From IMG/VR virus record IMGVR_UViG_3300045741_000093, positions 1 through 39,067 of that record: a stretch of DNA of 39,067 nucleotides. One strand, given 5' to 3'. Below, in pieces: positions 1-19,254 of this stretch. The position numbers were made by a program, and so were the translations under genes. Position 1 is the stretch's first letter. Each line of letters starts with the position of its first letter. This DNA is from a virus. A model generated the notes under the pieces. It was not told the origin of the DNA. It was given only the letters and a program-made list of their open reading frames with translations, and did no database searches.

Positions 1-145
1 GGCCTGAACGTTGTCGGCCGGGGTCCATGAACTTTCGAGCATGTCGAGCCGGCAGGCGGCGGTCATGGTGAGGCCCGTCCCGGCGGCCGTGATGTTGCCG
101 ACGATCACGCGAACCCCGCGCGGATCATCTTGGAATGAGCGCACT
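1..145. repeat. Terminal direct repeat, left copy
   Basis: Bases 1-145 match bases 38923-39067 with a single mismatch (A at 127, G at 39049). Both copies lie inside the SNF2 helicase reading frame, and joining them restores one uninterrupted gene. The mismatch is a synonymous Asp codon change (GAT versus GAC). This fits the overlapping ends of a circular assembly, or a short terminal redundancy, better than an attachment site. Confidence 0.95.
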
Positions 146-1194
146 GTCAACTCACGCTGGCGCTCGCTTGTGCCGCCGACGATTGTCTCAGCCCGTATGC
201 CGTGCTGGTTCAGGTGGTCAGCGACAAGCTGGATCGCCTTGCGGTGATGCGCCATGATGACGAGCTTGTCGATTGTGCCGGACTTCAGTTCTTCGGTGAT
301 GAGCTTGGCGTAGCCGGGCGCTTTAGCCTCGGCAATCAGCGCTCGAAGCGTGGCGATGTGCGTGCCGTCCTCGAACGCCAGCCGCCCCTCGGTCTCGATG
401 CTCTGGATGATGCGCTCGGACAGGCCCAGATACTGCTTCAGGTATTCCGTGACCGAGCAGCTGTCACCGTCAACCGGCAACACGTCTAAACGGATAGGCG
501 GCAGCGACGAGCCCACGTCGTCGAACGTCCGCATCAAGGACATATCGCGAAGCATGGCCTGAAGCTCTGGCAAAGCCTCCTTGCGCACGGAGTTGGCGAC
601 GCTAAACGTGCCGACGCGCTGCTTGAAGAACCGCTTCTGGAACGCGGTAAAGTCGAGCTTGGTCTGGCCGGACAGACGTAGCGGAATCCACAGGTCAGCC
701 GGATCGTTCTTGATCGGCGTCCCTGTCAGGCACCACACCCGCGAGGCAAAGCCAGCGATGCCGCCGATGCCGTCACCCTTCTCGCCGACAATGGCCTTTG
801 TGCGCTTGGTTTCCGGGTTCTTCAGGTAGTGGCTCTCGTCGATGATGAGCGCGTCGAAGTAGTCACTCGCGATGTCGCCGGCCCAGTTGACCGCCTGCTC
901 GTAGCTCATCACGAGCACATCCACCTTGCCGCGCTGCCAGGCGACTAGGTCAAACACGCTATCCGCCTTGACCACGCGGGCGTTATCCCGCCCCCACAGC
1001 CTGATCTGATACGGCCAGACCTGACGAACGCCAGCCGGGCAGATGACGATTGACCGCTCGGCCTTCACCAACTCGCGGGCGCGGATGGCCTGCGCGGTCT
1101 TGCCAAGACCGGGCTCGTCGAAGATAGACGCTCGGTAGTTGGCCGCGAGAAACGCTGCGCCTTCGATCTGGTATTGTTCAAGTTTCTCGGTCAT
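1..1194 (-). CDS. SNF2-family DNA helicase (N-terminal part; continues at 39067)
   Basis: This is a superfamily 2 ATPase of the SNF2 type, expected to translocate on DNA during phage replication or recombination. Read from the ATG at 1194, the protein shows a Q-motif-like start (QYQIEGAAFL, residues 7-16), Walker A DEPGLGKT (26-33), Walker B DESH (119-122) and motif III LTGTP (156-160). The frame is open to base 1 and continues at the other end of the window, where it contributes motif VI (QAVRRIRR). Joined across the repeat, 1194-146 plus 39067-38752 gives 454 residues, a usual length for phage SNF2 helicases. The start overlaps the end of the zinc-ribbon gene by 17 bases. SNF2, DUF2800, DUF2815 and PolA genes form a recurring phage replication set, and all are present here in order. 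Confidence 0.93.
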   Translation of the reverse strand, partial: MTEKLEQYQIEGAAFLAANYRASIFDEPGLGKTAQAIRARELVKAERSIVICPAGVRQVWPYQIRLWGRDNARVVKADSVFDLVAWQRGKVDVLVMSYEQAVNWAGDIASDYFDALIIDESHYLKNPETKRTKAIVGEKGDGIGGIAGFASRVWCLTGTPIKNDPADLWIPLRLSGQTKLDFTAFQKRFFKQRVGTFSVANSVRKEALPELQAMLRDMSLMRTFDDVGSSLPPIRLDVLPVDGDSCSVTEYLKQYLGLSERIIQSIETEGRLAFEDGTHIATLRALIAEAKAPGYAKLITEELKSGTIDKLVIMAHHRKAIQLVADHLNQHGIRAETIVGGTSERQRELTVRSFQDDPRGVRVIVGNITAAGTGLTMTAACRLDMLESSWTPADNVQA

Positions 1195-1420
1195 CTACCA
1201 CCTTAAACGTTTGGTTCTTAACGATCACATCGTAGATCGATGTGTCTATAGTCTGCTCAGCCGTTGTGAACTTTTCAGAACACGTTGCGCATGTGCGCTG
1301 CCTGAATTTTACACCTTTATGTGACCGACTATCGGTCACTCTGTTCAATCTGCTACCACACACCGGACAGGCAAGGGTCACTTGATCTGCGGCCTGCGAT
1401 ACGTTCCAACAGCTGCTCAT
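1178..1420 (-). CDS. NrdR-like zinc-ribbon protein, 80 aa
   Basis: A small predicted zinc-binding protein. Two CxxC pairs (C18/C21 and C44/C47) frame DSR (30-32), RQR (40-42) and FTTAE (51-55). This is the order seen in the N-terminal DNA-binding zinc ribbon of NrdR, the repressor of ribonucleotide reductase genes. The ATP-cone domain that follows in cellular NrdR is absent, leaving only about 25 further residues. The start at 1420 is chosen because its ATG overlaps the stop of the resolvase gene (ATGA), implying translational coupling; a longer in-frame extension to 1483 would lie wholly inside that gene. It could bind host nrd promoters or phage DNA. Ogr/Delta-type activators are an alternative family, but the FTT-E signature fits NrdR better. 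Confidence 0.7.
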   Translation of the reverse strand: MSSCWNVSQAADQVTLACPVCGSRLNRVTDSRSHKGVKFRQRTCATCSEKFTTAEQTIDTSIYDVIVKNQTFKVVDDRET

Positions 1421-1854
1421 GTTTCCACCCTCATGCACACGTAGCCGGGCCAAATGCTCATATCCACCACCGTCACGCGGCATCTGTCACGCGCAATGCC
1501 TTCACAAAGCTCAACATGCAGGCCCCGCATTTTCTTGTCGTCCACGACGATCCCGAGCCCGTGCTGCACCGGCTTGTCCGGGCACTTCAAGCTGTCCGAC
1601 AGCAGCTTGATGCGGTTGTCTATGTCGCCGCGAACCTCCGGGGACAGATCGATCCACAGCCCGTAAGGGCGATCCCCGAGCCGTGGCAGGTTATCACCCC
1701 TGCCATGGGTCTCTTTGACTTCGCGCAGCCAGAACCGATAGCCCGCCGTCTTCATGGTGAGATGCGATCCCCGTCGGGCGGCGAACGCGCGGTTCACAGA
1801 AGGTGGAAGAGGCAGGTCCAGCGTAATGATGTGTTGGAACGGCCGCTTCGTCAT
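1417..1854 (-). CDS. rusA: RusA-family Holliday junction resolvase
   Basis: A predicted endonuclease that resolves four-way DNA junctions formed during phage replication and recombination. The 145-residue protein has the RusA hallmarks: an N-terminal beta strand ending LPLPPSVNRAF, a central DIDNRIKLLSDSL carrying the essential acidic residues, and a following GLGIVVDDK segment with the second acidic pair. Length is close to the 120-145 residues usual for the family. The ATG at 1854 overlaps the stop of the upstream HTH gene (TGATG), and the resolvase stop overlaps the next start (ATGA), so the genes are tightly coupled. An upstream GTG at 1857 is possible but less likely. Function rests on the RusA motif pattern and was not tested by search. 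Confidence 0.88.
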   Translation of the reverse strand: MTKRPFQHIITLDLPLPPSVNRAFAARRGSHLTMKTAGYRFWLREVKETHGRGDNLPRLGDRPYGLWIDLSPEVRGDIDNRIKLLSDSLKCPDKPVQHGLGIVVDDKKMRGLHVELCEGIARDRCRVTVVDMSIWPGYVCMRVET

Positions 1855-2654
1855 CACACGCCGTCCGGCTTTAGCACTGCGCCAGCGTCAAGCACGGCAT
1901 CAATTTTCGCAAGCGCTCCTGCCCTGGCATTAACCTCCGTCTTTAGGAGCTTCACCTGGTTTGGTTTCATGCCAGGCCAAGGCCGCTTTCCGTTGCGGAT
2001 GAGCGAGTAGTAGGACTTCGATAGCCCGAGAATGTCAGCCATTTCACTATCCAGAAACCCCGCTGAGATAGCGAGCTTGATGAGCGCAGGAACCGGACCG
2101 CTCGGCTCTGCCGCTTTCCGCTGGCGCACGGGTGTAGCAGCCGGAGCGGGTTCGTCATCCCAGTCAGCCTCAACTGGTTCGTCTTGAATGAGCATGGCGA
2201 GCCCCTCGCGCAGTCTGGGAGAGCGAAGCCTGTCATCTGTATACGCGTAGGCTAGAATATCAGCGATGCGAAGTGCCGGAACCGGACAGTTGTTTTGTAT
2301 AGCTGTCGCAAATGCTTCGCGAAGCGCATCAACTCGTGCTTGCCAGTCAGCAGCAGCCCGCACTCTAGATAACTCAGCGTCCAATCCCTCAACATGCTTG
2401 GACAATACACTGTGTAAGTCCGCGAGGGGGCCGTCCTCTGAAATTGCCACATCCATCTCTGTGGCAATAAACTCCGACAGCTTTCCTAGGGCGCGGGATA
2501 GCGCGGATTGCACGTTTTCGCGAGCAACCTCATTGCACTTCTGCACCACCTCAACGGGCGTGACCGCACCCAAAGACCACGCGGTCGGGTCGTCCCGCAA
2601 AGACCAATGGAATTCACTGGCCGCCTTCTCTGCAATTTGTTTGACGTTCAACAT
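1854..2654 (-). CDS. HTH DNA-binding protein, candidate early regulator
   Basis: A 266-residue protein of unknown exact role. The N-terminal two thirds is helical and acidic in places, with no recognised domain. Near residues 190-240 there is a helix-turn-helix with a Cro/CI-like look (SEMADILGLSKSYYSLIRNG), so it probably binds DNA at its C-terminal end. The start at 2654 is preceded by a strong Shine-Dalgarno AAAGGAG (2669-2663) with an 8-base gap; a GTG 18 bases upstream lies before this site and is rejected. A consensus promoter with an overlapping dyad (2672-2706) lies directly upstream, giving a leader of about 17 bases. Being the first gene behind one of five similar promoter/operators makes it a candidate autoregulated repressor. 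That role is inference. Confidence 0.75.
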   Translation of the reverse strand: MLNVKQIAEKAASEFHWSLRDDPTAWSLGAVTPVEVVQKCNEVARENVQSALSRALGKLSEFIATEMDVAISEDGPLADLHSVLSKHVEGLDAELSRVRAAADWQARVDALREAFATAIQNNCPVPALRIADILAYAYTDDRLRSPRLREGLAMLIQDEPVEADWDDEPAPAATPVRQRKAAEPSGPVPALIKLAISAGFLDSEMADILGLSKSYYSLIRNGKRPWPGMKPNQVKLLKTEVNARAGALAKIDAVLDAGAVLKPDGV

Positions 2655-2671
2655 GTAGCATTCTCCTTTCA

Positions 2672-2706
2672 CATAAAAATTTATGCGTTTACTTGCCCCG
2701 TGTCAA
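2672..2706 (-). promoter_or_regulatory. Leftward promoter with overlapping dyad operator
   Basis: On the minus strand, TTGACA (2706-2701), a 17-base spacer and TAAATT (2683-2678) precede the HTH gene. A dyad CATA-N6-TATG spans 2672-2685, centred between the fifth and sixth bases of the -10. The same arrangement recurs at four other leftward promoters. The promoter lies within the end of the small membrane gene at 2681-2797. Confidence 0.7.
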
Positions 2707-2797
2707 CGGTGCAGGTCCGCATTGCGGCTTCATCGTCCGCAGCGATCCACCAGAGGACCGCGCCAAGCGCGAAGGTCACAGTGATCCAGTGCATCAT
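2681..2797 (-). CDS. Small single-pass membrane protein, 38 aa
   Basis: A 38-residue reading frame from the ATG at 2797 to the TAA at 2683-2681. Its ATG overlaps the stop of the beta-helix gene (ATGA), and a strong Shine-Dalgarno GGAGGA lies just upstream. The N-terminal half (WITVTFALGAVLWWIAA) is hydrophobic enough to span the membrane once, followed by a short acidic and polar tail. No family is recognised. Position in the early operon suggests a host-takeover or superinfection role, but nothing in the sequence proves it. Overlap with a promoter at its 3' end is unusual but common in compact phage genomes. Confidence 0.6.
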   Translation of the reverse strand: MMHWITVTFALGAVLWWIAADDEAAMRTCTVDTGQVNA

Positions 2798-3387
2798 TTT
2801 TCCTCCGGAATACGTCCTGTGTTTTTGGCAATGCTAATAAGTACATAGCCATACTCTTTCCAGAAGCGCGTGGATCGCACGCCGTCCATGGCTGCTACGC
2901 GGCGGTCATTAAATGTTTGCCATTCGGTCAGCAGGTGCGTTTCGCATCCGCACTGCATATGCTTGTCTGTGAGAGTCACAACATAGATGAGGCCGGATAT
3001 GGTGATGGGCGTTTTGGTAGCCCGCGCGTCACCAGAGACCTGCGCGTCACCAGAGACCTGCGCGTTGTCATAGACCTGCGCGTTGCCAGAGACCCGCGCG
3101 TTGCCAGAGACCCGCGCGTTGCCATAGACCCACGCGTCACCAGAGACCCGCGCGTTGCCATAGACCCACGCGTCACCAGAGACCCGCGCGTTGTCATAGA
3201 CCCACGCGTTGTCAGAGACCCACGCGTTGCCGCAAATCGACAGATTGTTTTCGTTCTCAATCCACCCGCCGACTGTGCCGGCGGCTAAATCTCCTATCGC
3301 CACGAGTGCCCTGATGCGCTTTAGGGTCACGCCGCCGAGCATAGTGTGTGTTTCCCCGGTGAACTCGTATTTTTTGTTGTTAGACAT
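2794..3387 (-). CDS. Short-period repeat protein, predicted left-handed beta-helix
   Basis: A 197-residue early protein. Residues from about 50 to 125 are a run of six-residue repeats of the form (N/D)A-x-V-(S/Y)-(G/D), for example GDAWVYGNARVSGDAWVYG, which is the pattern of left-handed beta-helix or hexapeptide proteins. Similar repeat proteins occur in many phages, mostly with unknown function. The N-terminal 45 residues contain a small domain (TLKRIRALVAIGD) and the C-terminal 70 residues are non-repetitive, with a CGCETH segment. The ATG at 3387 has the Shine-Dalgarno AAGGAG 9 bases upstream. The gene lies directly behind hammerhead ribozyme 1, whose cleavage would leave a leader of about 61 bases. 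Confidence 0.8.
   Translation of the reverse strand: MSNNKKYEFTGETHTMLGGVTLKRIRALVAIGDLAAGTVGGWIENENNLSICGNAWVSDNAWVYDNARVSGDAWVYGNARVSGDAWVYGNARVSGNARVSGNAQVYDNAQVSGDAQVSGDARATKTPITISGLIYVVTLTDKHMQCGCETHLLTEWQTFNDRRVAAMDGVRSTRFWKEYGYVLISIAKNTGRIPEEK
3023..3238. repeat. 18-bp tandem repeat inside the beta-helix gene
   Basis: Eleven clear copies and one degenerate copy of an 18-bp unit, plus-strand form CGCGCGTTGCCAGAGACC with variants at the TTGCC/TCACC/TTGTC and CAGAG/CATAG positions. Because 18 is a multiple of three, copies can be gained or lost without frameshift, and the other frames also stay open across the array. Confidence 0.95.
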
Positions 3388-3412
3388 GCCGCTTTCTCCT
3401 TGTTACGCCCCG

Positions 3413-3475
3413 TGCTCATCAGCTGCGGTTTGGGGCACTATGCCGCAGGACGCGGGATAGGCCCCGCGTTTCGCA
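3413..3475 (-). ncRNA. Type II hammerhead ribozyme 1
   Basis: Read on the minus strand: UGC (3475-3473), GAAA (3472-3469), stem III CGCGGG/CCCGCG (3468-3463 with 3456-3451, loop GCCUAU), U (3450), C (3449), stem I CUGCGG/CCGCAG (3448-3443 with 3428-3423), CUGAUGA (3422-3416) and GCA (3415-3413). Every core position of the hammerhead consensus is present, including the G10.1-C11.1 closing pair of stem II and a GUC cleavage triplet. Predicted cleavage is between 3449 and 3448, about 61 bases before the ATG at 3387. Stem II is only 3 bp locally, but an outer helix between ACGCCC (3514-3509) and GGGCGU (3410-3405) could close it. The order of elements makes it type II (open at stem II). Confidence 0.85.
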
Positions 3476-3480
3476 ATCAG

Positions 3481-3531
3481 TAAATCAGGTAGTCCAGCGT
3501 CTTTAACTGGGCGTTTCAGTCCCCTGATCTA
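3481..3531 (-). other. Structured spacer hairpin between gene stop and ribozyme 1
   Basis: Minus-strand UAGAUCAGG (3531-3523) can pair with CCUGAUUUA (3489-3481), 9 pairs including one G-U. Inside is a smaller CCAG/CUGG helix and a second GAAAC. It begins with the stop codon of the 3532-3810 gene. It lacks a U tract, so it is not an obvious terminator, and lacks CUGANGA, so it is not itself a ribozyme. Confidence 0.5.
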
Positions 3532-3810
3532 CTACTGAGGCCAGTTAAGTCGTTCAGCTATTTTTGCCAAGCGTGGGTCATAGCAGTCTCCCCCGTATCT
3601 GAACTGGGCGTCAGCTGTACTCTCGTGCTTTTCAAGAAGCGCGATGCCTAGCGCATTAACCGCTACACACCACTCTTCTTGACCGATAGCCATGTACAGA
3701 AAAGGCATTTCGTCCTCCGGGTCATAGCACTCAGCGGCTATTTCCCTTACGTACTCTTTCACTAAAAAGGCGGTTTTACCCGCCTCTGTTACAGCAGAGC
3801 GTTTAATCAT
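3532..3810 (-). CDS. Hypothetical early protein, 92 aa
   Basis: A small acidic protein from the ATG at 3810, with GAGG 6 bases upstream as ribosome binding site. The sequence is rich in acidic residues and cysteines (ECYDPEDEM near residue 27, GGDCYDPRL near 74). The CYDP segment occurs twice about 48 residues apart, hinting at an internal duplication or a shared binding motif. No family is recognised. It is flanked by two hammerhead ribozymes: ribozyme 2 ends 21 bases upstream of its start and ribozyme 1 lies downstream. Its message would therefore be released as a single-gene RNA. Early phage proteins of this size often modulate host enzymes, which is inference only. Confidence 0.7.
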   Translation of the reverse strand: MIKRSAVTEAGKTAFLVKEYVREIAAECYDPEDEMPFLYMAIGQEEWCVAVNALGIALLEKHESTADAQFRYGGDCYDPRLAKIAERLNWPQ

Positions 3811-3830
3811 GTTGAACCTCGTGTTGTGCG

Positions 3831-3897
3831 ACCCGCCATCTTCAGGGGTGAGCCGGTCAATGCTCGCCCGACGCCCCGGCGGGGCGTTTCGGCAAGT
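3831..3897 (-). ncRNA. Type II hammerhead ribozyme 2
   Basis: Minus strand: stem II 5' arm ACUUGCC (3897-3891), GAAA (3890-3887), stem III CGCCCC/GGGGCG (3886-3881 with 3877-3872, loop GCC), U (3871), C (3870), stem I GGGCGAGC/GCUCACCC (3869-3862 with 3853-3846, one mismatch), CUGAAGA (3845-3839), U (3838), stem II 3' arm GGCGGGU (3837-3831). Stem II has 7 pairs including two G-U. The single unpaired U between CUGAAGA and stem II departs from the canonical core, where stem II follows directly. Predicted cleavage after the GUC at 3870 leaves a 59-base leader before the ATG at 3810. Confidence 0.75.
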
Positions 3898-3927
3898 GTC
3901 ACGCGATACCCGCGCCGTATCTTGTAT

Positions 3928-4284
3928 TCACTCTTGCTCTATCAGGTTGAAAATGACTTCTTCTCCGTGCATCAATGCCCGCATCTCATCGAAAGTCGCG
4001 TAATCAGCGAGATACCAGTTTTTTCCCTCTGCTGTAGCTTCGCCGTCATCATCATAGTGCATGCTTTCAGCAATACACGGGGCGCCAGTCAGTGCGAGCG
4101 GGTTCGTCATCCGCGTTTCGCTATCAAAATAGCTGTATGAGCCGTTCGATGAATGACTTTCCAGAAGGTCACACCATATCATGTTATAGGGTTCGCTTTT
4201 AATGTAGTTTTCGATTAATTCAACTCCGTTATCCGTTGCCTTTACGGATAGATTGCCGTTTGCAAGTTCTGTAATCATTAACAT
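3928..4284 (-). CDS. Hypothetical early protein, 118 aa
   Basis: A 118-residue acidic protein without a recognised domain. Aromatic and acidic residues dominate the second half (YLADYATFDEMRALMHGEE). It begins with two nearby in-frame ATGs; the one at 4284 follows GGAG with a 10-base gap, and the one at 4278 is an alternative. The gene sits between hammerhead ribozyme 3, whose cut at 4338/4337 leaves a leader of 53 bases, and ribozyme 2. Codon use is less G+C-biased than in the structural genes, as in the neighbouring early genes, which may mean recent acquisition. No function is claimed. Confidence 0.72.
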   Translation of the reverse strand: MLMITELANGNLSVKATDNGVELIENYIKSEPYNMIWCDLLESHSSNGSYSYFDSETRMTNPLALTGAPCIAESMHYDDDGEATAEGKNWYLADYATFDEMRALMHGEEVIFNLIEQE

Positions 4285-4304
4285 GATCTTTACTCCAAGG
4301 GCCT

Positions 4305-4360
4305 GCCATCGTCAGGCGAGCGGGGCCATTCGCTCGCGACCCGCTTTAGCGGGTTTCAGC
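4305..4360 (-). ncRNA. Type II hammerhead ribozyme 3, overlapping a stop codon
   Basis: Minus strand: GCU (4360-4358), GAAA (4357-4354), stem III CCCGC/GCGGG (4353-4349 with 4344-4340, loop UAAA), U (4339), C (4338), stem I GCGAGCG/CGCUCGC (4337-4331 with 4322-4316, 7 perfect pairs, 8-base loop), CUGACGA (4315-4309), U (4308), GGC (4307-4305). Stem II is short (G-U, G-C, C-G) and preceded by the same extra U as in ribozyme 2. The GAAACCCGC segment also encodes the last three codons (Glu-Thr-Arg) of the upstream gene, and the loop holds its TAA stop. Predicted cleavage follows the GUC at 4338. Confidence 0.78.
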
Positions 4361-4621
4361 TCGTGCTTGTTCTACTATCTTCAGCGCTTGCGCCGTTGTG
4401 GAGGCTTCTATATATACACAAAACGCGCCGCCACGAGTATAAACGGCCACGACACGCCCGTGCCCCCAATAGACACCACCGCGATCATAATAGCCGTCAC
4501 CTCCGCAGTGTTTGGTGTATAATTTCCCGTTAACAGGAATATCGTTTATATCGTCTCCAGCGCGCCCCATCGGCGCGCCACGTTCTGTTTTTACTCTGAC
4601 GAATGGATTAAATCTTGACAT
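4346..4621 (-). CDS. Hypothetical early protein, 91 aa
   Basis: A 91-residue basic protein, rich in glycine, tyrosine and arginine (CGGDGYYDRGGVYWGHGR near the middle), with a helical C-terminus. No family is recognised. The start is placed at the ATG at 4621, because the longer open frame begins inside the -35 box of the promoter at 4656-4684 and would precede the transcription start. A weak GGGG lies upstream as ribosome binding site. Its final codons and stop double as part of hammerhead ribozyme 3, so cleavage would cut its message just 8 bases after the stop codon. It is the first cistron of the ribozyme-punctuated group. Confidence 0.7.
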   Translation of the reverse strand: MSRFNPFVRVKTERGAPMGRAGDDINDIPVNGKLYTKHCGGDGYYDRGGVYWGHGRVVAVYTRGGAFCVYIEASTTAQALKIVEQARAETR

Positions 4622-4645
4622 TGTGAACCCCGCGTTCGTTGTTTC

Positions 4646-4684
4646 GATAAATTTATATCTAGCTGTGTTATATCTGTTTGTCAA
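4646..4684 (-). promoter_or_regulatory. Leftward promoter with dyad
   Basis: TTGACA (4684-4679), a 17-base spacer and TAGATA (4661-4656) on the minus strand, with an expected start near 4649 and a leader of about 28 bases to the ATG at 4621. A dyad GATA-N6-TATC (4646-4659) overlaps the -10. Its centre is shifted about 4 bases downstream relative to the other four leftward promoters. The flanking stretch is markedly AT-rich. Confidence 0.65.
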
Positions 4685-4700
4685 TATTTATTTTCACATT

Positions 4701-4720
4701 TTGAAAATTTTTATTTTCAA
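4701..4720. promoter_or_regulatory. Perfect 8-bp palindrome upstream of the 4656-4684 promoter
   Basis: TTGAAAAT-TTTT-ATTTTCAA is a perfect inverted repeat with a 4-base centre. It overlaps the TGA stop of the 4717-5325 gene and lies 17 bases upstream of the -35 box. It could be an operator or an AT-rich upstream element. It is too weak in G-C pairs to be a convincing terminator. Confidence 0.45.
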
Positions 4721-5325
4721 TCCCACGCGGGCGCTTCCCACGGCCAGAAGCCGTTCAATAACATGTATTTAACATCGTCAAACAGGAATGCGACACCTGC
4801 TATCGTGAGATATCTCCCGCGCGGGGCGGATAGCATAGCGCCTTCAATAGCGTGACCTCGCGGCTTGCTGTCGTGTGGCGAGACGCCCCAGGTGAACGCG
4901 CCGTTTTCATCAATACGAACGACAAGGCGGATAATCGCCTTTAATGCATCGTGCTCGCTTTGTTCGTAGCGGTGGAGTAGCTTCGTCACGGCTTTATCAA
5001 AGCGACCGGGGATAGCGAGATACGGGGTAGACGCGCCGCGATGCCAGGGCCAGCAATAGCCGTGCGTCAGCGCATCAGCTATATCGGCTGTCAATAGCTG
5101 ATGACCAGAGCACATGACGATTGCGCCGCGTCCATAGCAGGGGCGATTGCCGGCCGGCCTGTTTTCCAGCTTCAGTAATTTTACGATGCGCGCTTTCGAC
5201 ACGCCGGCCGCGCGGGCTTCATCGGCCGAGCGCCATCGGACTTGCTCTACAGGGCAGGGCGAAAAATAATCTAGCAAGGCGTCTCCATTCACGGTGGAGG
5301 GTGAAAACTTTCCATTAATTCTCAT
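4717..5325 (-). CDS. Hypothetical protein with two HNH-fold-like half motifs, 202 aa
   Basis: The first gene of the leftward operon. No family is firmly recognised. Two segments share a pattern: one near residues 76-94 (LLTADIADALTHGYCWPW) and one at the C-terminus (FLFDDVKYMLLNGFWPWE). Both resemble the piece of HNH endonucleases that precedes the catalytic core, usually HRLVW-x-x-x-x-G-x-WP, yet no HNH catalytic histidines follow. Residues 33-60 (DEARAAGVSKARIVKLLKL) look like a small helix-turn-helix. A DNA-binding remnant of a homing-type protein is one reading. The ATG at 5325 follows AGGAG with a 7-base gap and a strong promoter at 5364-5392. Confidence 0.65.
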   Translation of the reverse strand: MRINGKFSPSTVNGDALLDYFSPCPVEQVRWRSADEARAAGVSKARIVKLLKLENRPAGNRPCYGRGAIVMCSGHQLLTADIADALTHGYCWPWHRGASTPYLAIPGRFDKAVTKLLHRYEQSEHDALKAIIRLVVRIDENGAFTWGVSPHDSKPRGHAIEGAMLSAPRGRYLTIAGVAFLFDDVKYMLLNGFWPWEAPAWD

Positions 5326-5353
5326 GATGTCTCCTAGCTACTGAGTAACGGCT

Positions 5354-5392
5354 ATCTGACAGCTTTATATCAGATCTATCAGAAAAAATCAA
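5354..5392 (-). promoter_or_regulatory. Main leftward early promoter with dyad operator
   Basis: Minus strand TTGATT (5392-5387), 17-base spacer, TATAAA (5369-5364). A dyad ATCTGACA-N6-TATCAGAT (5354-5375, 7 of 8 matches) is centred between the fifth and sixth bases of the -10, as at three other leftward promoters. Expected start near 5357, giving a leader of about 32 bases to the ATG at 5325. Confidence 0.75.
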
Positions 5393-5400
5393 CACAACAA

Positions 5401-5426
5401 GACAAGCCGAATAATTCGGCTTTGTC
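5401..5426. terminator. Strong hairpin upstream of the leftward promoter
   Basis: AAGCCGAA-TAA-TTCGGCTT, extended by flanking GACA and TGTC with one bulged T. It sits between the divergent units with no clear T run on either side. It may insulate the two transcription units or be part of a structured origin region. Assignment as a terminator is tentative. Confidence 0.4.
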
Positions 5427-5978
5427 AACGGTTCATGCAACGCTTCGTCCCTTGCCGATGCGGGACGCTTTGCGCCCGCCAGGCAGGTGACGGGGCGTAA
5501 CAGCAAAGGGCGCAATCTATGGCCGTTCACAGGTATGACAAAACGCAAGTTTACGGGATTGCAGGGCGAAAAGGCGGGGGAGTGACGTTCGGGCGGATTA
5601 GCTGAATTGACGATATGGCGGGGCCTTCGAAAACTATTCAATGAAATCAATGACTTAGCTGAATTGCAAACTATTATTATTATTATTTTCAAACCTGAAC
5701 GGCCCGTTCAACCCGCCAAATCAGGGCTTCAGGGCATTGCGGGCGGCGCACCCGGCCGATTTGGTGCGAAAACGCGGCGTTCACAACATTCGAGATCGGG
5801 GGTAGGGGGAGCCCCCAAACGATTTGCACAGCGCCGCGCGGGTCTAACTCCACAGTTTTCGGGTCCATCTGAACTTGTAAACCATTGTTTTCTATTTTCG
5901 CTCCGAATATGAACTAGCAAACTTGTGTTATAGCGGCACAAAACGAACCGGAATCTCGTGTTTTCCCGCAGCCGGGGC
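5427..5978. other. Gene-free divergent region with several inverted repeats
   Basis: No convincing gene is seen in these 552 bases. It holds a hairpin CGTCCC/GGGACG (5446-5467), a longer TTGCGCCC/GGGCGCAA pairing (5470-5515), a direct 12-bp repeat TTAGCTGAATTG (near 5598 and 5655), a short ATT microsatellite around 5672-5688, and GGGG-GAGC-CCCC near 5805. A weak rightward promoter-like pair TTGTTT (5885) and TATGAA (5908), 17 bases apart, is also present. Open frames here have no ribosome binding site and no protein-like composition. Position suggests a replication origin, packaging site or regulatory RNA, but nothing decides between these. Confidence 0.5.
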
Positions 5979-6008
5979 TTGACAGTCAGCCGCCCCGCAT
6001 GGCACTAT
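5979..6008 (+). promoter_or_regulatory. Candidate rightward promoter for the late genes
   Basis: TTGACA (5979-5984) followed after 18 bases by CACTAT (6003-6008). The -35 is perfect, the -10 weak. Transcription would start near 6015, leaving the Shine-Dalgarno AAAGGAG (6015-6021) at the very 5' end. The ATG dyad seen over the leftward promoters is not present. Confidence 0.45.
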
Positions 6009-6027
6009 GGCAACAAAGGAGACCACC

Positions 6028-6873
6028 ATGCCCCGGAAGGGAGTTGACCCAGGATTGGCGCGTTCACTGCCCGGCCCGCTCGGCTCGGGGGCGGGACATC
6101 TGCCTGCGCCGCTACCAGCCGGAGTTCTGCCGCCCGAAGACAGCCGCATGTGGCAGTTCGTGCCGCGTGCTGTGCAGCAGGGCGAGGCGTTCATCCAGGA
6201 CGACACGCGGGATTGGTTCGACGACCGAGATCGGAAGATTGTAATCTGCCGGGACTACCAGGATCACCCGCGCTGGATCGTGAACCCTGGGGTGCGGGCG
6301 CGGATGCACAACGCGCAGATCATCGCTGAAATTCACATGCTGGCGCGGATCACAGCGGGTAAGTCGGATGTACCGGCGTGGGTGCCGGCGCGGATGAGCG
6401 TCAAGCAGCAGCAGAGCGACCTGGCGTACCGGCTGACCAAGGCCACCCGTGAGGTGTTCATCAAGGAAGGCAAGGAGGCGCTGGAGGCATTTGCCGACAA
6501 AGCTCCCGGCCAGTTCATCAAGTTCGTAGGGGCAACATTCATTCCGAAGCAGATCGAAGCGAACGTGACCCAGTCGGCCGGGCAGACCATGGACCCGGAG
6601 ACAGCAGACGCGCTGCTAGCGGCAATCTCGGAAGAGTTGAAGCGGCGGCAGGACGAGGCCAAGGAGATCGCCGTGGTTCGCCCACTCGACTATGACGCGC
6701 CTGCCGAGATTGTTGACATGGTGAAGCAGTCGGCCGATACGTTCCACATGGCGACCGAACCAGGCTACTCACCGGGTAGTTCGAAGGCTGGGCACCCGGT
6801 AAGCCTGTCGATAGGGTTGACAAAGGTTGTTGATTTAGAAGCAGATATTCAGTCGGAGGTTGAATGGGAATGA
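6028..6873 (+). CDS. Putative small terminase / DNA packaging protein, 281 aa
   Basis: The first gene of the rightward unit, six reading frames ahead of the large terminase. The protein is 281 residues with a proline- and glycine-rich N-terminus, a central helical section (residues about 95-180) and a polar C-terminus. No catalytic motif is visible. Phage gene order and a predicted helical oligomer-like middle suggest the DNA-recognition subunit of terminase, but I cannot confirm this from motifs. The ATG at 6028 is preceded by AAAGGAG with a 6-base gap; the in-frame ATG at 6007 has no ribosome binding site and lies in the promoter. Its stop overlaps the next start (ATGA). Confidence 0.55.
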   Translation: MPRKGVDPGLARSLPGPLGSGAGHLPAPLPAGVLPPEDSRMWQFVPRAVQQGEAFIQDDTRDWFDDRDRKIVICRDYQDHPRWIVNPGVRARMHNAQIIAEIHMLARITAGKSDVPAWVPARMSVKQQQSDLAYRLTKATREVFIKEGKEALEAFADKAPGQFIKFVGATFIPKQIEANVTQSAGQTMDPETADALLAAISEELKRRQDEAKEIAVVRPLDYDAPAEIVDMVKQSADTFHMATEPGYSPGSSKAGHPVSLSIGLTKVVDLEADIQSEVEWE

Positions 6874-6995
6874 TGGACCACCTGAAGAAGTATGCGGTGC
6901 TCTACGGGCTCGCGGTGTGGACGGTGATCGGAATGTTTACCATGGGCGGCCGGACGGTCGGGGCGAGCAGCGAATACGCACGGGTGCTGCGATGA
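6870..6995 (+). CDS. Small membrane protein, 41 aa
   Basis: A short frame from the ATG at 6870, which overlaps the stop of the preceding gene (ATGA), to TGA at 6993-6995. GGAGG at 6855-6859 gives a ribosome binding site 10 bases away. Residues 9-26 (VLYGLAVWTVIGMFTMGG) form one likely membrane segment, with a basic N-terminus. ATGs at 6864 and 6873 are alternative starts. The next gene again starts with an ATGA overlap, so the chain of couplings supports it being real. No family is recognised. Confidence 0.6.
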   Translation: MMDHLKKYAVLYGLAVWTVIGMFTMGGRTVGASSEYARVLR

Positions 6996-7192
6996 GCGAT
7001 CCGGCGGATGCGCTGACCGAGATGCTGGTGCGGGCGGTGACCGGCGCTCCGGCCCACTTGCTTGCGGATGCGGTAGAGAAGTTCCAGCGCATTCTGGAGA
7101 ACGAACGCCGTCGAGCGCGGGCGGAACTGATACGCCTAGTGTGGCAAGAAGACACTGCGCTTGCGCAAAGATTGGAAGGGAAACTGGGATGA
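6992..7192 (+). CDS. Hypothetical helical protein, 66 aa
   Basis: A 66-residue protein starting at the ATG at 6992 (ATGA overlap with the preceding stop). It is predicted mostly helical, with a basic RRRARAELI stretch following an acidic helix, and looks like a small coiled-coil or adaptor protein. No family is recognised. It is coupled to the next gene by another ATGA overlap at 7189. A role in packaging or regulation is possible from position alone. Confidence 0.65.
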   Translation: MSDPADALTEMLVRAVTGAPAHLLADAVEKFQRILENERRRARAELIRLVWQEDTALAQRLEGKLG

Positions 7193-7707
7193 GTGATGCA
7201 CTGACGAAGCTGCGGGCGGACCCGCGACTGAAGAAGCCGGAAGGTCGGGTGATTGACCGCACGGACCGGATCGAGGCCACGAACTCGGCGGATGCGCGAA
7301 AGGCGCGGCAGATCGTCCGTGAACTGCGCACCGGCTCGCTGCCGCTGATCGCGCAGGCCATCGCCAAGGTCACGAGCGATCTCGGCGTGAAGCACGCGCT
7401 GCAGGAAGCGTTTGAACGTTTCGCTGTCGCCAACGATAACTATATGCGCGAAGAAATTAAACCGCGCGATCGGCTGATTGAGTGGATGGGCGTCGGGCAT
7501 GGCGTCATGCCGCCGCTGCCACCGGGCTCGCCGGAGTACAAGGTCGAACTCGCGGAAGCGTGGAACGCGCTGCTTGCCCTGGTCAACGAGGCCACGAAGG
7601 TCGGCATCCACAAGCCGCACCGAGAACACCCGATCATGCTGAAAGTTGATCTGGAGACCGCCAGCACTCCGGCTATCATCCTGCCTGGCAGCGCGGAGTG
7701 GGACTGA
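7189..7707 (+). CDS. Hypothetical protein, 172 aa
   Basis: A 172-residue protein from the ATG at 7189, whose start overlaps the previous stop. The N-terminal 30 residues are charged (RADPRLKKPEGRVIDRTDRI). The middle is helical, and a proline-rich turn (VMPPLPPGSPEYK) precedes a final helix and strand. I recognise no domain or catalytic motif. It lies between packaging genes and the MazZ-like enzyme, and its stop overlaps the start of that enzyme (TGATG), so it is translated in the same coupled block. It might be an accessory packaging or DNA-metabolism protein. Confidence 0.65.
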   Translation: MSDALTKLRADPRLKKPEGRVIDRTDRIEATNSADARKARQIVRELRTGSLPLIAQAIAKVTSDLGVKHALQEAFERFAVANDNYMREEIKPRDRLIEWMGVGHGVMPPLPPGSPEYKVELAEAWNALLALVNEATKVGIHKPHREHPIMLKVDLETASTPAIILPGSAEWD

Positions 7708-8018
7708 TGGAGGGCAGGAAACTCGACGATGGCAAAGACCCGTGGCACCTGCTCCCGACAGACGCGGTGCGCGGCATTGTGCGAGTTCTGGCCTTTGGTG
7801 CCGTTAAGTACAGCCCGAGAAACTGGGAGAAAGGAATGGATTGGAGCCGCTGTTATGCGGCAGCCATTCGACACCTGACGGCTTGGTGGGAAGGCGAAAC
7901 TAGAGACCCGGAAACCGGATTTTCACATCTGTGGCACGCCGGGTGCTGTGTGCTGTTTCTGATTGCGTTCGAGATGCGAGGCACAGGGCGAGACGACAGG
8001 GCCAGAGCAGATGACTGA
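7707..8018 (+). CDS. MazZ-like dATP/dGTP diphosphohydrolase
   Basis: A 103-residue protein matching the phage family of MazG-fold dATP/dGTP pyrophosphohydrolases (formerly DUF5664), which cut dATP or dGTP to the monophosphate and pyrophosphate. Family features seen: the opening KLDDGKDPWHLLP, the GAVKYSPRNWEKG segment, the RHLTAWWEGE helix and SHLWHAGCC, with the acidic and histidine residues expected to hold metal. In 2-aminoadenine phages the related MazZ supplies dGMP to PurZ, but no PurZ-like gene is visible here, so it may simply shape the nucleotide pool. The start at 7707 overlaps the previous stop (TGATG); an in-frame start at 7698 is less likely. The gene overlaps terminase by 8 bases. 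Confidence 0.8.
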   Translation: MEGRKLDDGKDPWHLLPTDAVRGIVRVLAFGAVKYSPRNWEKGMDWSRCYAAAIRHLTAWWEGETRDPETGFSHLWHAGCCVLFLIAFEMRGTGRDDRARADD

Positions 8019-9462
8019 CCTACGCACCCTGACTGACGACGATCTCCAGGCGCTTCTCCAGCGCATCAACGCGGCCAAGCAGGAGCAGGCCAAGCTGACG
8101 AAGCTGGAGGACTACCGGCCTTACCCGAAGCAGATGCTGTTCCATGAACTCGGTAGCCGTTACCGCGAGCGCCTGTTCGCCGCCGGCAACCAGCTCGGGA
8201 AGACGTACTCCGGCGCGGCCGAGCTTGCCTACCACTTGACCGGCCGCTACCCGCCCGGCTGGAAGGGGCGTGTGTGGACGCGGCCGACATCATGGCTCGC
8301 CGGATCGGAAAGCGGCGAGTTGACACGAGATGGTATGCAGCGCCTGCTCGTCGGCCCGCCGTCGATTGAGGAAGCCTGGGGGACCGGGCTTATCCCGCGC
8401 GAGTGCTTCGCTCAAAAGCCGAAGCGCCGCGCCGGCATCAAGGACGCCATCGACGCGGTCGTGGTCAACCACATCCACGGCGGCCAGTCGGTGGTCCGCT
8501 TCAAGAGCTTCGATCAGGGCCGGTCGAAGTGGCAGGCCGACACGGCGGACGGCGTGTGGCTCGACGAAGAGCCACCCTACGATGTGTATGAAGAGGCCGT
8601 GACCCGCACGAACGCCACAGGCGGCATGGTGTATATTACGTTCACACCACTGAAGGGCATGTCCCAAGTGGTGATGAAGTTCTTCCAAAGCCCCGGCAAT
8701 GACCGTATCGTCGTGCAGATGTCTATCGAAGACGTGGGGCATTACTCGAACGAGCAGAAACAGCGCATCATCTCATCGTATGATGACGCCACCCGAGACG
8801 CCCGCACCAAGGGCATCCCGGTCCTCGGCTCGGGGCGGGTGTTTAATCTGCCGGACGACATGGTCAAGATCGACCCTATCCGCATCCCCGATCACTGGGC
8901 GCGCGTCGGCGGCATGGACTTTGGGTGGGACCACCCGTTTGCCGGGGTCGAGCTTTGCTGGGACCGCGACACCGATACGATCTATGTGACCCGCGAGTAT
9001 CGGGAGACCAAGCAGACGCCCCTCGTCCACGCCGCCACGCTGAAGCAGTGGGGCGGGCTCCTGCCGTGGATGTGGCCGCATGACGGGAACCAGCATGATA
9101 AGGGCTCGGGGGTTCAACTCGCCAAACAATACCGTTCTGCCGGGTTGCTGGTGCATCCATCTCATGTTACGTTCGAAGATGGGTCAGTCGGGGTGGAAGC
9201 TGGCATTATGGAGATGTTGACAAGAATGAACGAGGGGCGCTGGAAAGTTTTCAGCACTTGCACAATGTGGCTGAACGAGTTCAATCTGTACCACCGGAAA
9301 GATGGTTTGATTGTGAAGCTAAATGATGACTTGATCTCGGCCAGCCGATACGCCATGATGGGGCGGAGGTTCGCCCGTTCGCCGAACCGGCGTGTTTCAT
9401 GGACAGGCGACTTTCGCCCGCCCATGGTGACAGCGGCGGGGACTGGCGAAGTCAAGCTGTAA
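8011..9462 (+). CDS. terL: Terminase large subunit
   Basis: The ATP-driven motor and nuclease that packages phage DNA into the prohead and cuts it. The 483-residue protein has Walker A AAGNQLGKT (about 57-65), Walker B VWLDEEP (182-188) and the RNase H-like nuclease with its first acidic residue in GGMDFGWDHP (D303) and a second in MWPHDGNQH (D358). This fits the T7-like Terminase_6 type. The ATG at 8011 lies inside the end of the MazZ-like gene. It is followed at once by the portal block, the usual phage order. Confidence 0.95.
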   Translation: MTDLRTLTDDDLQALLQRINAAKQEQAKLTKLEDYRPYPKQMLFHELGSRYRERLFAAGNQLGKTYSGAAELAYHLTGRYPPGWKGRVWTRPTSWLAGSESGELTRDGMQRLLVGPPSIEEAWGTGLIPRECFAQKPKRRAGIKDAIDAVVVNHIHGGQSVVRFKSFDQGRSKWQADTADGVWLDEEPPYDVYEEAVTRTNATGGMVYITFTPLKGMSQVVMKFFQSPGNDRIVVQMSIEDVGHYSNEQKQRIISSYDDATRDARTKGIPVLGSGRVFNLPDDMVKIDPIRIPDHWARVGGMDFGWDHPFAGVELCWDRDTDTIYVTREYRETKQTPLVHAATLKQWGGLLPWMWPHDGNQHDKGSGVQLAKQYRSAGLLVHPSHVTFEDGSVGVEAGIMEMLTRMNEGRWKVFSTCTMWLNEFNLYHRKDGLIVKLNDDLISASRYAMMGRRFARSPNRRVSWTGDFRPPMVTAAGTGEVKL

Positions 9463-9473
9463 GGGAGATTGCT

Positions 9474-9677
9474 ATGACAGGATTATTTGGGGGTGGGGCA
9501 AAAGCCGCTGCCCCTCCGCCGGTGGTTCAACCGTCGCCGGCTCCGCAGGTGGATGACGCCACCGCCAAGATCAACTTGGAAGACGCAGCAGCGCGCCGCC
9601 AGGGCCGGAAGACAACGATCCTGACCAGCGACAGCGGTCTGCCGAACCTCGGAACAACTAGCCGCGTGGGGCAGTAA
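9474..9677 (+). CDS. Small portal-adjacent virion protein, 67 aa
   Basis: A 67-residue protein with a glycine-, alanine- and proline-rich start (GLFGGGAKAAAPPP) and a basic end (RRQGRKTTILTSDSGL). Small proteins with the same layout, and a TILTS near the C-terminus, are common next to podophage portal genes. T7 gp7.3, a tail assembly protein, has a comparable basic tail, so a head-tail or tail-assembly role is plausible. The ATG at 9474 has GGGAG 7 bases upstream. Confidence 0.6.
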   Translation: MTGLFGGGAKAAAPPPVVQPSPAPQVDDATAKINLEDAAARRQGRKTTILTSDSGLPNLGTTSRVGQ

Positions 9678-9680
9678 GCT

Positions 9681-11342
9681 ATGGATGATGACCGCGCCAA
9701 GACACTGAGCGAGCGTCTTAAGAAGCTCCAAGCAGATCGTGTGAACTTCAACACGACCTGGGAGAAAATCGCGCGTGTCGTGCTCCCCACATCTGTCGGG
9801 TTTACCACAACCTACGCTCCGGGCACGAACCTGAACCAGGACGTGTTCGATAGCACGGCGCAGTTGGCGCTCCCGCGCTTCGCCGCTGCTATTGACACGC
9901 TGGTCACGCCGCAGACCAGCAAATGGCACATGCTTGCGCCGAAGAACCGAGCGCTGAACAAATCGTCCAACGTTCGCAATTTTCTGTCCAATCTGAACGA
10001 TCTCCTGTTCGCCGTGCGCTATGCGCCGCGCGCAAACTTTGCGAGCCGCGCCTACGAGACCTACATGAGCCTCGGGGCCTTCGGTAACGGCGTGCTTTAT
10101 GTCCATGACGCCAGGCCCGGCATCCGCTATGTCTCCGTTCACCTGTCCGAGATTTGGTTCGACGAAGACCACAATGGCGTGATCGACACTGCCTATTGGG
10201 TCCACGAGTACACGCAGCGGCAAGCAGTGCAGAAGTGGGGCGACAAGCTCCCGAAGTGCATCAAGGATGATGCTGACAAGAACCCGCTGAAGAAAGTGAA
10301 GTTCTGCAAAGCTGTGTTCCCGCGCGCCGAGCGCGACACCCGCCGCCGTGACGCCAAGAACATGCCGTTCGCTTCCGTGGTGTTCTATGTCGGGGATGAG
10401 ACGACGATTGTCGAAGAGAGTGGATACCGCACATTCCCGTTCGCCGTGGCGCGATATGTAACAGCTCCTCGTGAAATCTATGCGCGCGGCCCGGCGCAGG
10501 ATGCGCTCTCTGACATCCTGACCCTTCAGGAGATGGTCAAGACGAGCTTGCGCTACGGCCAGCTTGTGACCGATCCACCGTGGATGGCGGTTGACGCGGA
10601 TAGTCTCGACCCGTTCGCCGTGCGGCCGGGGGCAATCAACTACGGCTATCTGTCGCCGGACGGGCAGGACCGCATCAAACCGCTGCGCCCGCAGGGCGAT
10701 ACCGGCTTCACGCTCGAATTGCTGGACCAGCGGCGGCAGGCGATCAACGGCGCATTCTTGGTCAATCTATTTCAGGTGCTCGTCCAGAACGGCTCTGACC
10801 GGAAGACCGCGACCGAGGTCATGCAACTCGTCCAAGAGAAGGGCGCACTGCTCGGGCCTATCGGCGGGCGGTTGCGCACCGAGTTCTTGGGCGCGATTAT
10901 TGAGCGCGAGATTGATATATTGGCCCACGCCGGGGCGATCTCACCCGACAAATTGCCGGATGAACTCCGCCACGACGGCGGGCTCGACATCGAATACGAC
11001 AGCCCCCTGACGCGGGCGATCAAGGCGGAAGAGGGTGTCGGCATCCTGCGCACGCTGGAGTTTGCAGGGCAGATGGCGCAGTTCGACCAGGGCGTGATGA
11101 AGAAGATCAACACCGGCCGCGCGCTGGAGCGCATGGCCGACATCAACGGCGCGCCGCCGGACATTCTGTTCGACGAGGCGGAGATGCAGCAGAAGGCGCA
11201 GGAAGATCAGCAAGCTGCTGCGGCTCAGCAAGCGGTTGTGGCCGCACCTGGCATTGCTTCTGCGGCCAAGGATTTTGCGCAGGCACAGATGTTGTCCGCC
11301 AAAGCGCAGACGTTAACCCCAGGCGCATCAGGAGGAATATAA
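9681..11342 (+). CDS. Portal protein (T7 gp8-like head-tail connector)
   Basis: Forms the dodecameric portal through which DNA enters and leaves the capsid and to which the tail attaches. The 553-residue length and the sequence, including the N-terminal DRVNFNTTWEKIARVVLPTS and the TPQTSKWHML region followed by a long helical middle and an alanine/glutamine-rich C-terminal barrel (QQKAQEDQQAAAAQQ), match the T7-type head-tail connector family. It begins three bases after the previous stop. Gene order (terminase, portal, scaffold, capsid, gp11, gp12) supports the call strongly. Confidence 0.93.
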   Translation: MDDDRAKTLSERLKKLQADRVNFNTTWEKIARVVLPTSVGFTTTYAPGTNLNQDVFDSTAQLALPRFAAAIDTLVTPQTSKWHMLAPKNRALNKSSNVRNFLSNLNDLLFAVRYAPRANFASRAYETYMSLGAFGNGVLYVHDARPGIRYVSVHLSEIWFDEDHNGVIDTAYWVHEYTQRQAVQKWGDKLPKCIKDDADKNPLKKVKFCKAVFPRAERDTRRRDAKNMPFASVVFYVGDETTIVEESGYRTFPFAVARYVTAPREIYARGPAQDALSDILTLQEMVKTSLRYGQLVTDPPWMAVDADSLDPFAVRPGAINYGYLSPDGQDRIKPLRPQGDTGFTLELLDQRRQAINGAFLVNLFQVLVQNGSDRKTATEVMQLVQEKGALLGPIGGRLRTEFLGAIIEREIDILAHAGAISPDKLPDELRHDGGLDIEYDSPLTRAIKAEEGVGILRTLEFAGQMAQFDQGVMKKINTGRALERMADINGAPPDILFDEAEMQQKAQEDQQAAAAQQAVVAAPGIASAAKDFAQAQMLSAKAQTLTPGASGGI

Positions 11343-11344
11343 AA

Positions 11345-11596
11345 ATGGCTACGATTGGACGAAGCAAAAGCGACTACGGTACGGCTGAAGATTATTTTCC
11401 TATCACGCCGAATGACGCAGCAGATTTGAGCGTAGATACGCGGGAAATCGTGGTTGCTGTCGGCGGCAATCTAGCGTTGATGAAAGTTGACGGGACAACC
11501 GTTGTATTGACGTTGCCAGCCGGGCGGTTTGCGTTTCGTGTCCGGCGCGTTTTGGCGACGGGAACGACAGCTAGCGGAATAACGGGGGTTGTGTGA
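11345..11596 (+). CDS. Spike base protein-like, RCAP_Rcc01079 type, 83 aa
   Basis: An 83-residue beta-rich protein. The pattern of a DAADL segment, a short strand-rich VAVGGNLALMKVDG, then VLTLPAGRF and FRVRRVLATGTTASG matches the small spike base proteins first named in the Rhodobacter capsulatus gene transfer agent. Such proteins are found on capsid vertices, where they seat head spikes that hold carbohydrate-binding subunits. Its stop overlaps the start of a lectin-like protein, so the two likely form a head spike pair. The ATG at 11345 follows GGAGG with a short gap. The family call is from memory of the motif and needs a profile search. Confidence 0.7.
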   Translation: MATIGRSKSDYGTAEDYFPITPNDAADLSVDTREIVVAVGGNLALMKVDGTTVVLTLPAGRFAFRVRRVLATGTTASGITGVV

Positions 11597-12462
11597 TGTC
11601 GGTAGGCATTGGCGTTGGCCTGTCATTCTTCGGTAGCCTTTTGACCACCAACATCCTCCCGCTTGACGGGCTTTCCGTAACGGCGGCGTTCAGCCTGCGC
11701 AAGGTACGCACGGCACACACCGGTGCAGCCATTCGCGTGCGGCGGTCATCCGATAACTTTGAGCAAGACATCGGCTTCACGTCAACCGGTGGTCTCGACA
11801 CAACAGGTCTTTTGGCGTTCGTCGGGGCGGGTAGCGGTTTTGTAACCGTATGGTATGGTCAGGTAGGTCAGATAAACGCCACGCAAGCCACGGCGGAAAA
11901 TCAGCCGCGCATCGTCAATGCGGGCGTTGTTGAGCAACAGAACGGCAGGCCAAGCCTATGGTTTGATGGCGTGAATGACAACTTGATGGTCTCTTCATCA
12001 ACTATGCTACAAAACAACCCGCAGGTTATATCATCGGTTGTAAATCTACAGGGTATTGGCGCAAACAGCGTTGTCTCTAATGACAGCCCCGGACAATACG
12101 GCCGTGGGTTTGGTAATGCTGGCGGTAGCGGAAACGCTCAGATCATGTTCAATGATGGGTGGTCGGCTGGCACTGTGTGGCCAGTGAACAGTTTGCAGAT
12201 TGCAACCGCGTCTTGGTCAACTTTGAACGTGGAACTTTACCTTCAAGGTATGAGGAATATCAATCGAGGATCACGCGAGACAGGAAACCTAGCAGCAGGC
12301 AATTATATCTGCATCGGGTCTGGACAACCTTCAACACTCTATAGCCCTGCTAAATACATATCCGAAATCATCATAACAAGTGAGAATTGGAATAACCGCC
12401 CAAGCAGTCAAGTCACTCTAGAGAAGAATCAGGGTGCGTATTTTGGAGTTTCTATTGCATGA
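11596..12462 (+). CDS. AbfB/LamG-like carbohydrate-binding spike protein
   Basis: A 288-residue protein resembling the alpha-L-arabinofuranosidase B catalytic-type fold used as a binding module in phages. Diagnostic stretches are FSLRKVRTAHTGAAIRVRRS, GAGSGFVTVWYGQVGQ and a QPRIVNAGVVEQQNG-RPSLWFDGVND run, followed by a ConA-like lectin sandwich. It probably binds host or environmental glycans. Coupled to the spike base protein by a TGATG overlap and placed between portal and scaffold, it is best read as a head spike rather than a tail protein. Catalytic activity cannot be judged from sequence alone. Confidence 0.7.
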   Translation: MSVGIGVGLSFFGSLLTTNILPLDGLSVTAAFSLRKVRTAHTGAAIRVRRSSDNFEQDIGFTSTGGLDTTGLLAFVGAGSGFVTVWYGQVGQINATQATAENQPRIVNAGVVEQQNGRPSLWFDGVNDNLMVSSSTMLQNNPQVISSVVNLQGIGANSVVSNDSPGQYGRGFGNAGGSGNAQIMFNDGWSAGTVWPVNSLQIATASWSTLNVELYLQGMRNINRGSRETGNLAAGNYICIGSGQPSTLYSPAKYISEIIITSENWNNRPSSQVTLEKNQGAYFGVSIA

Positions 12463-12743
12463 TAAGCCCGAAAACAAAAGCTCGGGTCCGTCAGCAGGCG
12501 CTGCGCGCTATGTGCATTGGGCCCGACGGAAAGCTGACTAAGAATGCTCAGTTGATTCTCGCCTACTTGCGGCGCGAATGCAACGGAGACGGGCGATACG
12601 GGCCACCTGTGTCGTCAGTGACAGGAACTATTGATCCGCTCGCGATGGCGCGGGCGGCCGGGCGGCGCGAAATTTTTGACCTTCTCGCTCGAGTGCTGAG
12701 CGTTACGATCGAAGACCGCCATAACTTGGAGGAAAACTTATGA
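12459..12743 (+). CDS. Bbp19-like phage protein, 94 aa
   Basis: A 94-residue basic protein. The layout of a helical start (VRQQALRAMCIGPDGKLT), a central loop and the DPLAMARAAGRREIFDLLARVL end resembles the small Bbp19-type proteins found beside podophage portal and scaffold genes, whose role is unknown. The ATG at 12459 overlaps the preceding stop, and its own end overlaps the scaffold start, so translation is coupled on both sides. Confidence 0.6.
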   Translation: MISPKTKARVRQQALRAMCIGPDGKLTKNAQLILAYLRRECNGDGRYGPPVSSVTGTIDPLAMARAAGRREIFDLLARVLSVTIEDRHNLEENL

Positions 12744-13717: not shown

Positions 13718-13761
13718 TATATACGACATGCCCTCCAAGGGCGTTTCCTCCTTGAAACTAA

Positions 13762-13793
13762 CGGGCCAGGTTCAAACCTCGGCCCGCTTTTTC
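13762..13793 (+). terminator. Intrinsic terminator between scaffold and capsid genes
   Basis: A hairpin with an outer CGGGCC/GGCCCG stem and an inner AGGTT/AACCT stem, joined by one bulged C, followed by CTTTTTC. It would reduce readthrough from upstream genes and lies just before a new promoter, so capsid synthesis is set separately. Confidence 0.85.
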
Positions 13794-13799
13794 ATTTAG

Positions 13800-13828
13800 T
13801 TGACAACTTGCGAACGCAGTATTACAAC
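13800..13828 (+). promoter_or_regulatory. Promoter for the major capsid gene
   Basis: TTGACA (13800-13805), 17-base spacer, TACAAC (13823-13828). It follows the terminator directly and drives the capsid gene through a leader of about 127 bases. No dyad of the leftward operator type is present. Confidence 0.65.
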
Positions 13829-13834
13829 GGAGAA

Positions 13835-14903: not shown

Positions 14904-14956
14904 GCCATTAAAGTCCGAGCTTAACTTCTGCTAATCTAATTTTTGGAGTCACCGTA

Positions 14957-15421: not shown

Positions 15422-15445
15422 GGTTCGATGTAGAGCTATCTCTGC

Positions 15446-15473: not shown

Positions 15474-15493
15474 CATGCTTCTGGGAGTGCGGC

Positions 15494-19248: not shown

Positions 19249-19254
19249 CGCAAT

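Follow-up and report, generated by a model that had tools for sequence, protein, structure and literature searches.

Clusters of hammerhead ribozymes in phage DNA are already known, having first been described in 2011, when Perreault et al. reported prophages in which clustered hammerheads flank single genes or short blocks of genes and proposed that they process transcripts into single-gene mRNAs (PMC3088659). The hammerhead triple around ardA in A. tumefaciens was cleaved in E. coli, other prophage clusters were found in A. caulinodans and C. scindens, and cleavage of arrays analogous to the one considered here was demonstrated both in vitro and in E. coli; 4 of the 18 consensus hammerheads assayed in that work failed to cleave (PMC3088659). 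The same study identified a pseudoknot between loop I and the 3' tail as typical of type II hammerheads, and described HHphage of the haloviruses HF1/HF2, which adjoins an early-region gene and for which a 5' end was mapped no more than 3 nt from the predicted cut (PMC3088659). The clustered pattern was reiterated in a 2017 review (PMC6155905). The preliminary description of the present locus had taken a tandem operon-punctuating array to be previously unreported, which does not hold in view of these clusters; the useful additions are the variable array size and the exchange of cassettes at the ribozyme edges.

The window analysed here is the whole of a 39,067-bp virus record. It encodes a terminase large subunit and a head-tail adaptor of podovirus type (PHROG search), together with a primase-type protein and a DUF2800 nuclease (Pfam search), and the source phage is podovirus-like. 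No DNA relatives of positions 1-20000 were found in named phages. Additionally, a homologue of the sRNA mmgR/suhB (RF00519) is located at 13723-13800 on the plus strand, between the genes at 12740-13717 and 13800-14903, and at least three relatives carry one too (L010 13457-13533, L007 14896-14971, and L008 14842-14915), with scores in window and relatives of 44.5-59.9 bits, over the gathering score. Its presence suggests an alphaproteobacterial host, and the phage-borne copy of this host regulatory sRNA may serve as a mimic or sponge.

Four accessory genes run in one direction on the minus strand from 4621 to 2794, with a hammerhead in each of the three gaps (Table 1). The stop codon of the last gene overlaps the next start (ATGA at 2797-2794, by sequence reading). 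The beta-solenoid repeat region of this last gene doubles as a DNA repeat that is 84-88% self-similar, so the repeat number may vary by recombination. The promoter-like box upstream of the run scored under the threshold of a consensus promoter scan, and direct reading finds TTGACA at a comparable place in two related contigs, G007 and G014. For cargo genes 1 and 2, viral contigs yielded no relatives.

Table 1 Features of the accessory-gene run and its flanks, in the order of transcription
Feature	Position	Strand	Remarks
Upstream flanking gene	4717..5325	-	Conserved: G007 80% identical, G014 about 34%
Promoter-like TTGACA-17-TAGATA, upstream of the four-gene run	4656..4684	-	Sequence reading; suggestive only
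Accessory gene 1	4346..4621	-	91 aa; no PHROG/Pfam match
Type II hammerhead C, first in transcript	4297..4361	-	RF02276 33.4 bits, E 8.6e-7; predicted cut 4338/4337
Accessory gene 2	3928..4284	-	118 aa; no PHROG/Pfam match; ATG 53 nt past predicted cut of copy C
Type II hammerhead B	3827..3894	-	RF02276 24.7 bits, E 1.7e-4; predicted cut 3870/3869
Accessory gene 3	3532..3810	-	92 aa; no PHROG/Pfam match; ATG 59 nt past predicted cut of copy B
Type II hammerhead A	3408..3476	-	RF02276 27.7 bits, E 2.7e-5; predicted cut 3449/3448
Accessory gene 4, YdcK-like beta-solenoid repeat protein	2794..3387	-	197 aa; PF18836 64.7 bits; PHROG 7964/5070; ATG 61 nt past predicted cut of copy A
Downstream flanking gene	1854..2654	-	Conserved: 58% identical in G007 and G014

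Each gap, read on the minus strand, consists of GAAA, hairpin III, UC, hairpin I, and CUGANGA inside a stem II of only 3 bp; in all three copies, stems I and III are closed by loops, and stem II is open and bears the 5' and 3' ends. This is the anatomy and strand claimed in the preliminary description, as established by sequence reading, Infernal, and a structural descriptor, and the predicted cuts fall exactly where that description had put them, at the same distances from the next ATG. Stem II is GCA/UGC in copy A and includes a G-U pair in copy C. Copies B and C have an additional U between A9 and stem II (position 10.1), which is also found in alphaproteobacterial copies that score higher with the Rfam model. 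The earlier placement of all three elements within spacers needs refining for copy C, which at 4357-4309 is not fully confined to its spacer: its 5' part is formed by the last codons of gene 4346-4621, where GAA ACC CGC UAA provides GAAA, the 5' half of stem III, and the loop, with the UAA stop lying within that loop. The upstream stop codon precedes copy A by 55 nt. A feature missed at first is the pseudoknot, which is possible between loop I and the 3' tail in every window copy with 4-5 bp (GCCCC/GGGGC in A, GACC/GGUC in B, and GGCC/GGCC in C), the tail beginning 1 nt past stem II. Standard pairs occupy 41 of the 42 stem positions inspected in the three copies; stem I of copy B contains one C-A mismatch. 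The native fold of copy B is the minimum free energy (MFE) structure of its core stretch; for copy A, an MFE structure without the pseudoknot competes (-28.4 vs -21.3 kcal/mol for the native fold).

Infernal matched all three copies to RF02276 (E values in Table 1 are for this genome), in each case below the gathering score of 37 bits, which is a curation limit and not a structural feature. Copy C was absent from the scan of the whole window with cmscan and from that of positions 2600-7500, each of which listed two copies, presumably owing to the search filters; its stretch scanned alone was matched with an E value of 9.4e-6 over all Rfam families. The structural descriptor gave three matches in the window, against 0.015 per dinucleotide shuffle (200 shuffles, with at most one match in any).

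The head-tail adaptor, used as the query, retrieved 13 related contigs, to which a 17-base leader pattern added two more, G014 and G015. The corresponding locus of G007, whose adaptor is 94% identical, carries two hammerheads, and that of G014 carries four between five genes, the first of which scores 37.6 bits and thus exceeds the Rfam cut-off; the size of the array at one locus is therefore two in G007, three in the window, and four in G014. One hammerhead each is present in G015 and in G002, a short contig whose edge holds the element and matches G007 at that place. Four weaker candidates were set aside, all below 15 bits and without a descriptor match: G010 5806 (14.8 bits), G002 473 (13.5 bits), G014 6757-6852 (12.5 bits), and G015 5742 (12.2 bits).

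In the ten copies from four phage records (three from the window and seven from relatives), the catalytic core, with CUGANGA, GAAA including the A15.1-U16.1 pair, UC, and H17 at the cut, is complete, in line with the constancy expected earlier, and the predicted cut lies 53-63 nt before the ATG. Among nine distinct ribozymes, 121 of the 126 stem pairs inspected are standard (114 Watson-Crick and 7 G-U), most stem positions show two to four types of standard pair, and a pseudoknot of 4-7 bp is available in all nine, with differing sequences. Note that these pairs were counted by structural position, a MAFFT alignment having misplaced copies B, C, and G014_1. Pairing is held by compensatory changes and not by DNA identity alone, which indicates that selection acts on the RNA fold. 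The covariation within one genome on which the preliminary description relied is thus real, but part of the differences reflects two sub-lineages of leaders and not only point changes.

Beyond this group, the Rfam search found no hammerhead in the distant relatives L007, L008, L011, and L013, which shows that phages of the wider group can do without the device, and no other ribozyme class appeared among the Rfam matches of distant relatives. At positions 5436-5575 of L008, a tRNA match of 33.5 bits, above the cut-off, is overlapped by two sub-threshold YrlA (Y RNA-like) matches. No type II hammerhead was found in three named but distant phages whose adaptor protein is related, BcepC6B among them, and no DNA relatives of hammerhead A were found in named phages. 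A strong type II hammerhead was detected in 2 of 385 alphaproteobacterial genomes and in 8 of 317 genomes of the order to which one of those two belongs; the survey filters were strict, and these counts are lower bounds. At least one locus in the survey of that order (L160) has two hammerheads about 1.2 kb apart. A 3'-leader pattern with 16 specified bases gave more than 100 matches in bacterial genomes; none of those fetched fit the hammerhead descriptor, and the pattern matches were therefore taken as chance.

The flanking genes stay, but the four cargo proteins encoded in the window have no match among those of G007 and G014. What hammerhead A of the window has in common with G007 and G014 is the module alone: its alignment with their copies covers about 92-104 bp at 76-80% identity, the homology starting at the ribozyme and stopping just past the next ATG. 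Within G007, the 95% identity of copies 1 and 2 extends over the ribozyme as far as the start codon, and the genes beyond the ATG are unrelated. In G014, copies 2 and 3 are unrelated before the 5' edge of the ribozyme and 86% identical after it; for copies 3 and 4, the common part precedes the ribozyme and does not include what follows. Such abrupt changes in homology point to recombination or duplication, the junctions lying at the module edges or close to them, and, as the homology blocks span the region from the ribozyme 5' edge to the next start codon or just beyond it, the ribozyme together with the RBS behaves as a portable leader.

In an independent alphaproteobacterial genome, G061, the same pattern is seen: the stretches L154 1310-1568 and L156 1-259 are 98.5% identical through the upstream gene and the type II hammerhead, and the genes are unrelated from 10 nt past the CUGAUGA core. 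Cargo proteins with an 11-residue ARRAYDEATAP-like repeat in variable number are encoded at L010 3532-4128 and L022 5061-5429 and 5520-5888; these genes are duplicated in tandem along with their hammerhead leaders, and the C-terminal remnant of one copy sits upstream of the first hammerhead of G007. The ribozyme-RBS leaders may tentatively be viewed as a plug-in system, a possibility for which the odds are somewhat short of even, in which an incoming gene brings, or lands between, self-cutting leaders that separate its message from those of the neighbours, and homology among leaders allows cassettes to be gained, lost, or duplicated, with arrays of two, three, or four at one locus as the outcome. 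No report of cassette exchange at ribozyme edges was found in the literature searched, outside which subscription journals largely lay.

The three type II hammerheads probably punctuate a four-gene accessory operon, their predicted cuts yielding single-gene mRNAs, with the ribozyme and RBS acting as a portable leader. In the nascent RNA, presumably one polycistronic transcript, each copy would fold in the order stem II, GAAA, hairpin III, UC, hairpin I, and CUGANGA, and the fold would be locked by the pseudoknot of loop I with the bases directly past stem II. Cutting after C17, if it takes place in the cell, would give the upstream message a 3' end made up of the GC-rich hairpin III and a 2',3'-cyclic phosphate, whereas the downstream message would start with hairpin I bearing a 5'-OH, 53-61 nt ahead of the start codon. 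In bacteria, 5'-OH and structured ends slow RNA decay. Since both new ends would be structured and the 5' end would lack the monophosphate sensed by RNase E, each gene is likely to be carried on its own mRNA, with separate stability and translation, on the supposition that the ends are protected. The ribozyme and RBS leader would persist while the surrounding cargo genes are swapped.

The punctuation of the operon, as already proposed in the preliminary description, is supported by the matches in all gaps, the shuffle control, the cores and cut-to-ATG distances kept in the ten copies, the compensatory pairs, the pseudoknots, the orthologous arrays, the absence of any intrinsic terminator-like site from the minus strand of the run, and the published cleavage of analogous arrays (PMC3088659). 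Counted against it were the sub-threshold Rfam scores, the competing fold of copy A, the four inactive hammerheads among those assayed in the published work, and the hammerhead-free distant relatives. The first two of these would also fit chance or decayed hammerhead-like hairpins, for instance processing or terminator hairpins; such an origin is nevertheless very improbable, given the rarity of descriptor matches in shuffled sequence, the intact cores in every copy, the pseudoknots, the orthologous array in which one copy exceeds the gathering score, and the lack of T-run terminators on the minus strand within the run.

Active ribozymes might instead serve chiefly in translational or otherwise regulated control, folding in competition with ribosomes that finish the upstream gene or load at the next RBS, so that cleavage would report the state of translation or of salt/Mg2+ and not separate the genes constitutively. 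The stop codon within hairpin III of copy C, the stops that precede stem II by a few bases in alphaproteobacterial copies and several relatives, the proximity of the pseudoknot tail to the Shine-Dalgarno sequence, and the suggestion of regulated cleavage in phages (PMC3088659) are in keeping with this. However, the combination of canonical cores with strong hairpins and pseudoknots has the look of fast, constitutive cleavage, ligand-sized insertions are lacking, and the stop positions differ, as seen for copy A, which makes control of this kind unlikely as the chief function. It is quite unlikely, too, that the ribozyme-leader modules are kept mainly as recombination joints for the shuffling of accessory genes, with cleavage secondary: homology breakpoints do fall at module edges in G007, G014, and window copy A, and the identity in G061 that stops 10 nt past the ribozyme core follows a like pattern, but the compensatory changes bespeak selection on the RNA fold, and window copy A is too diverged from copies B and C for them to act as mutual homology.

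The role of hammerheads in phages has been a question since 2011, and sister arrays of two, three, and four copies around exchanged genes, with conserved flanks, bring it within reach of a test, namely whether the cuts insulate the individual cargo genes and whether accessory genes are exchanged through the ribozyme leaders as joints. With HHphage of HF1/HF2, the present elements share the position just upstream of a phage gene in a polycistronic transcript (PMC3088659), here a presumed one, but HHphage is a single copy with a variant core in an archaeal virus. The permuted architecture, catalytic core, and loop I/tail pseudoknot are those of RF02276 (Hammerhead_II), from which the window copies differ in their scores of 24.7-33.4 bits against the cut-off of 37 and, in two of them, in the additional U between A9 and 10.1. 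As in the clusters of Perreault et al. (2011), several hammerheads on the same strand of phage DNA lie close together around single genes or short gene blocks, and the identities of these genes vary. Unlike those clusters, the present array places one hammerhead, always of type II, in each gap of a four-gene run with other cargo genes, and it has sister arrays of different size at one locus, in which homology ends at the module edges.
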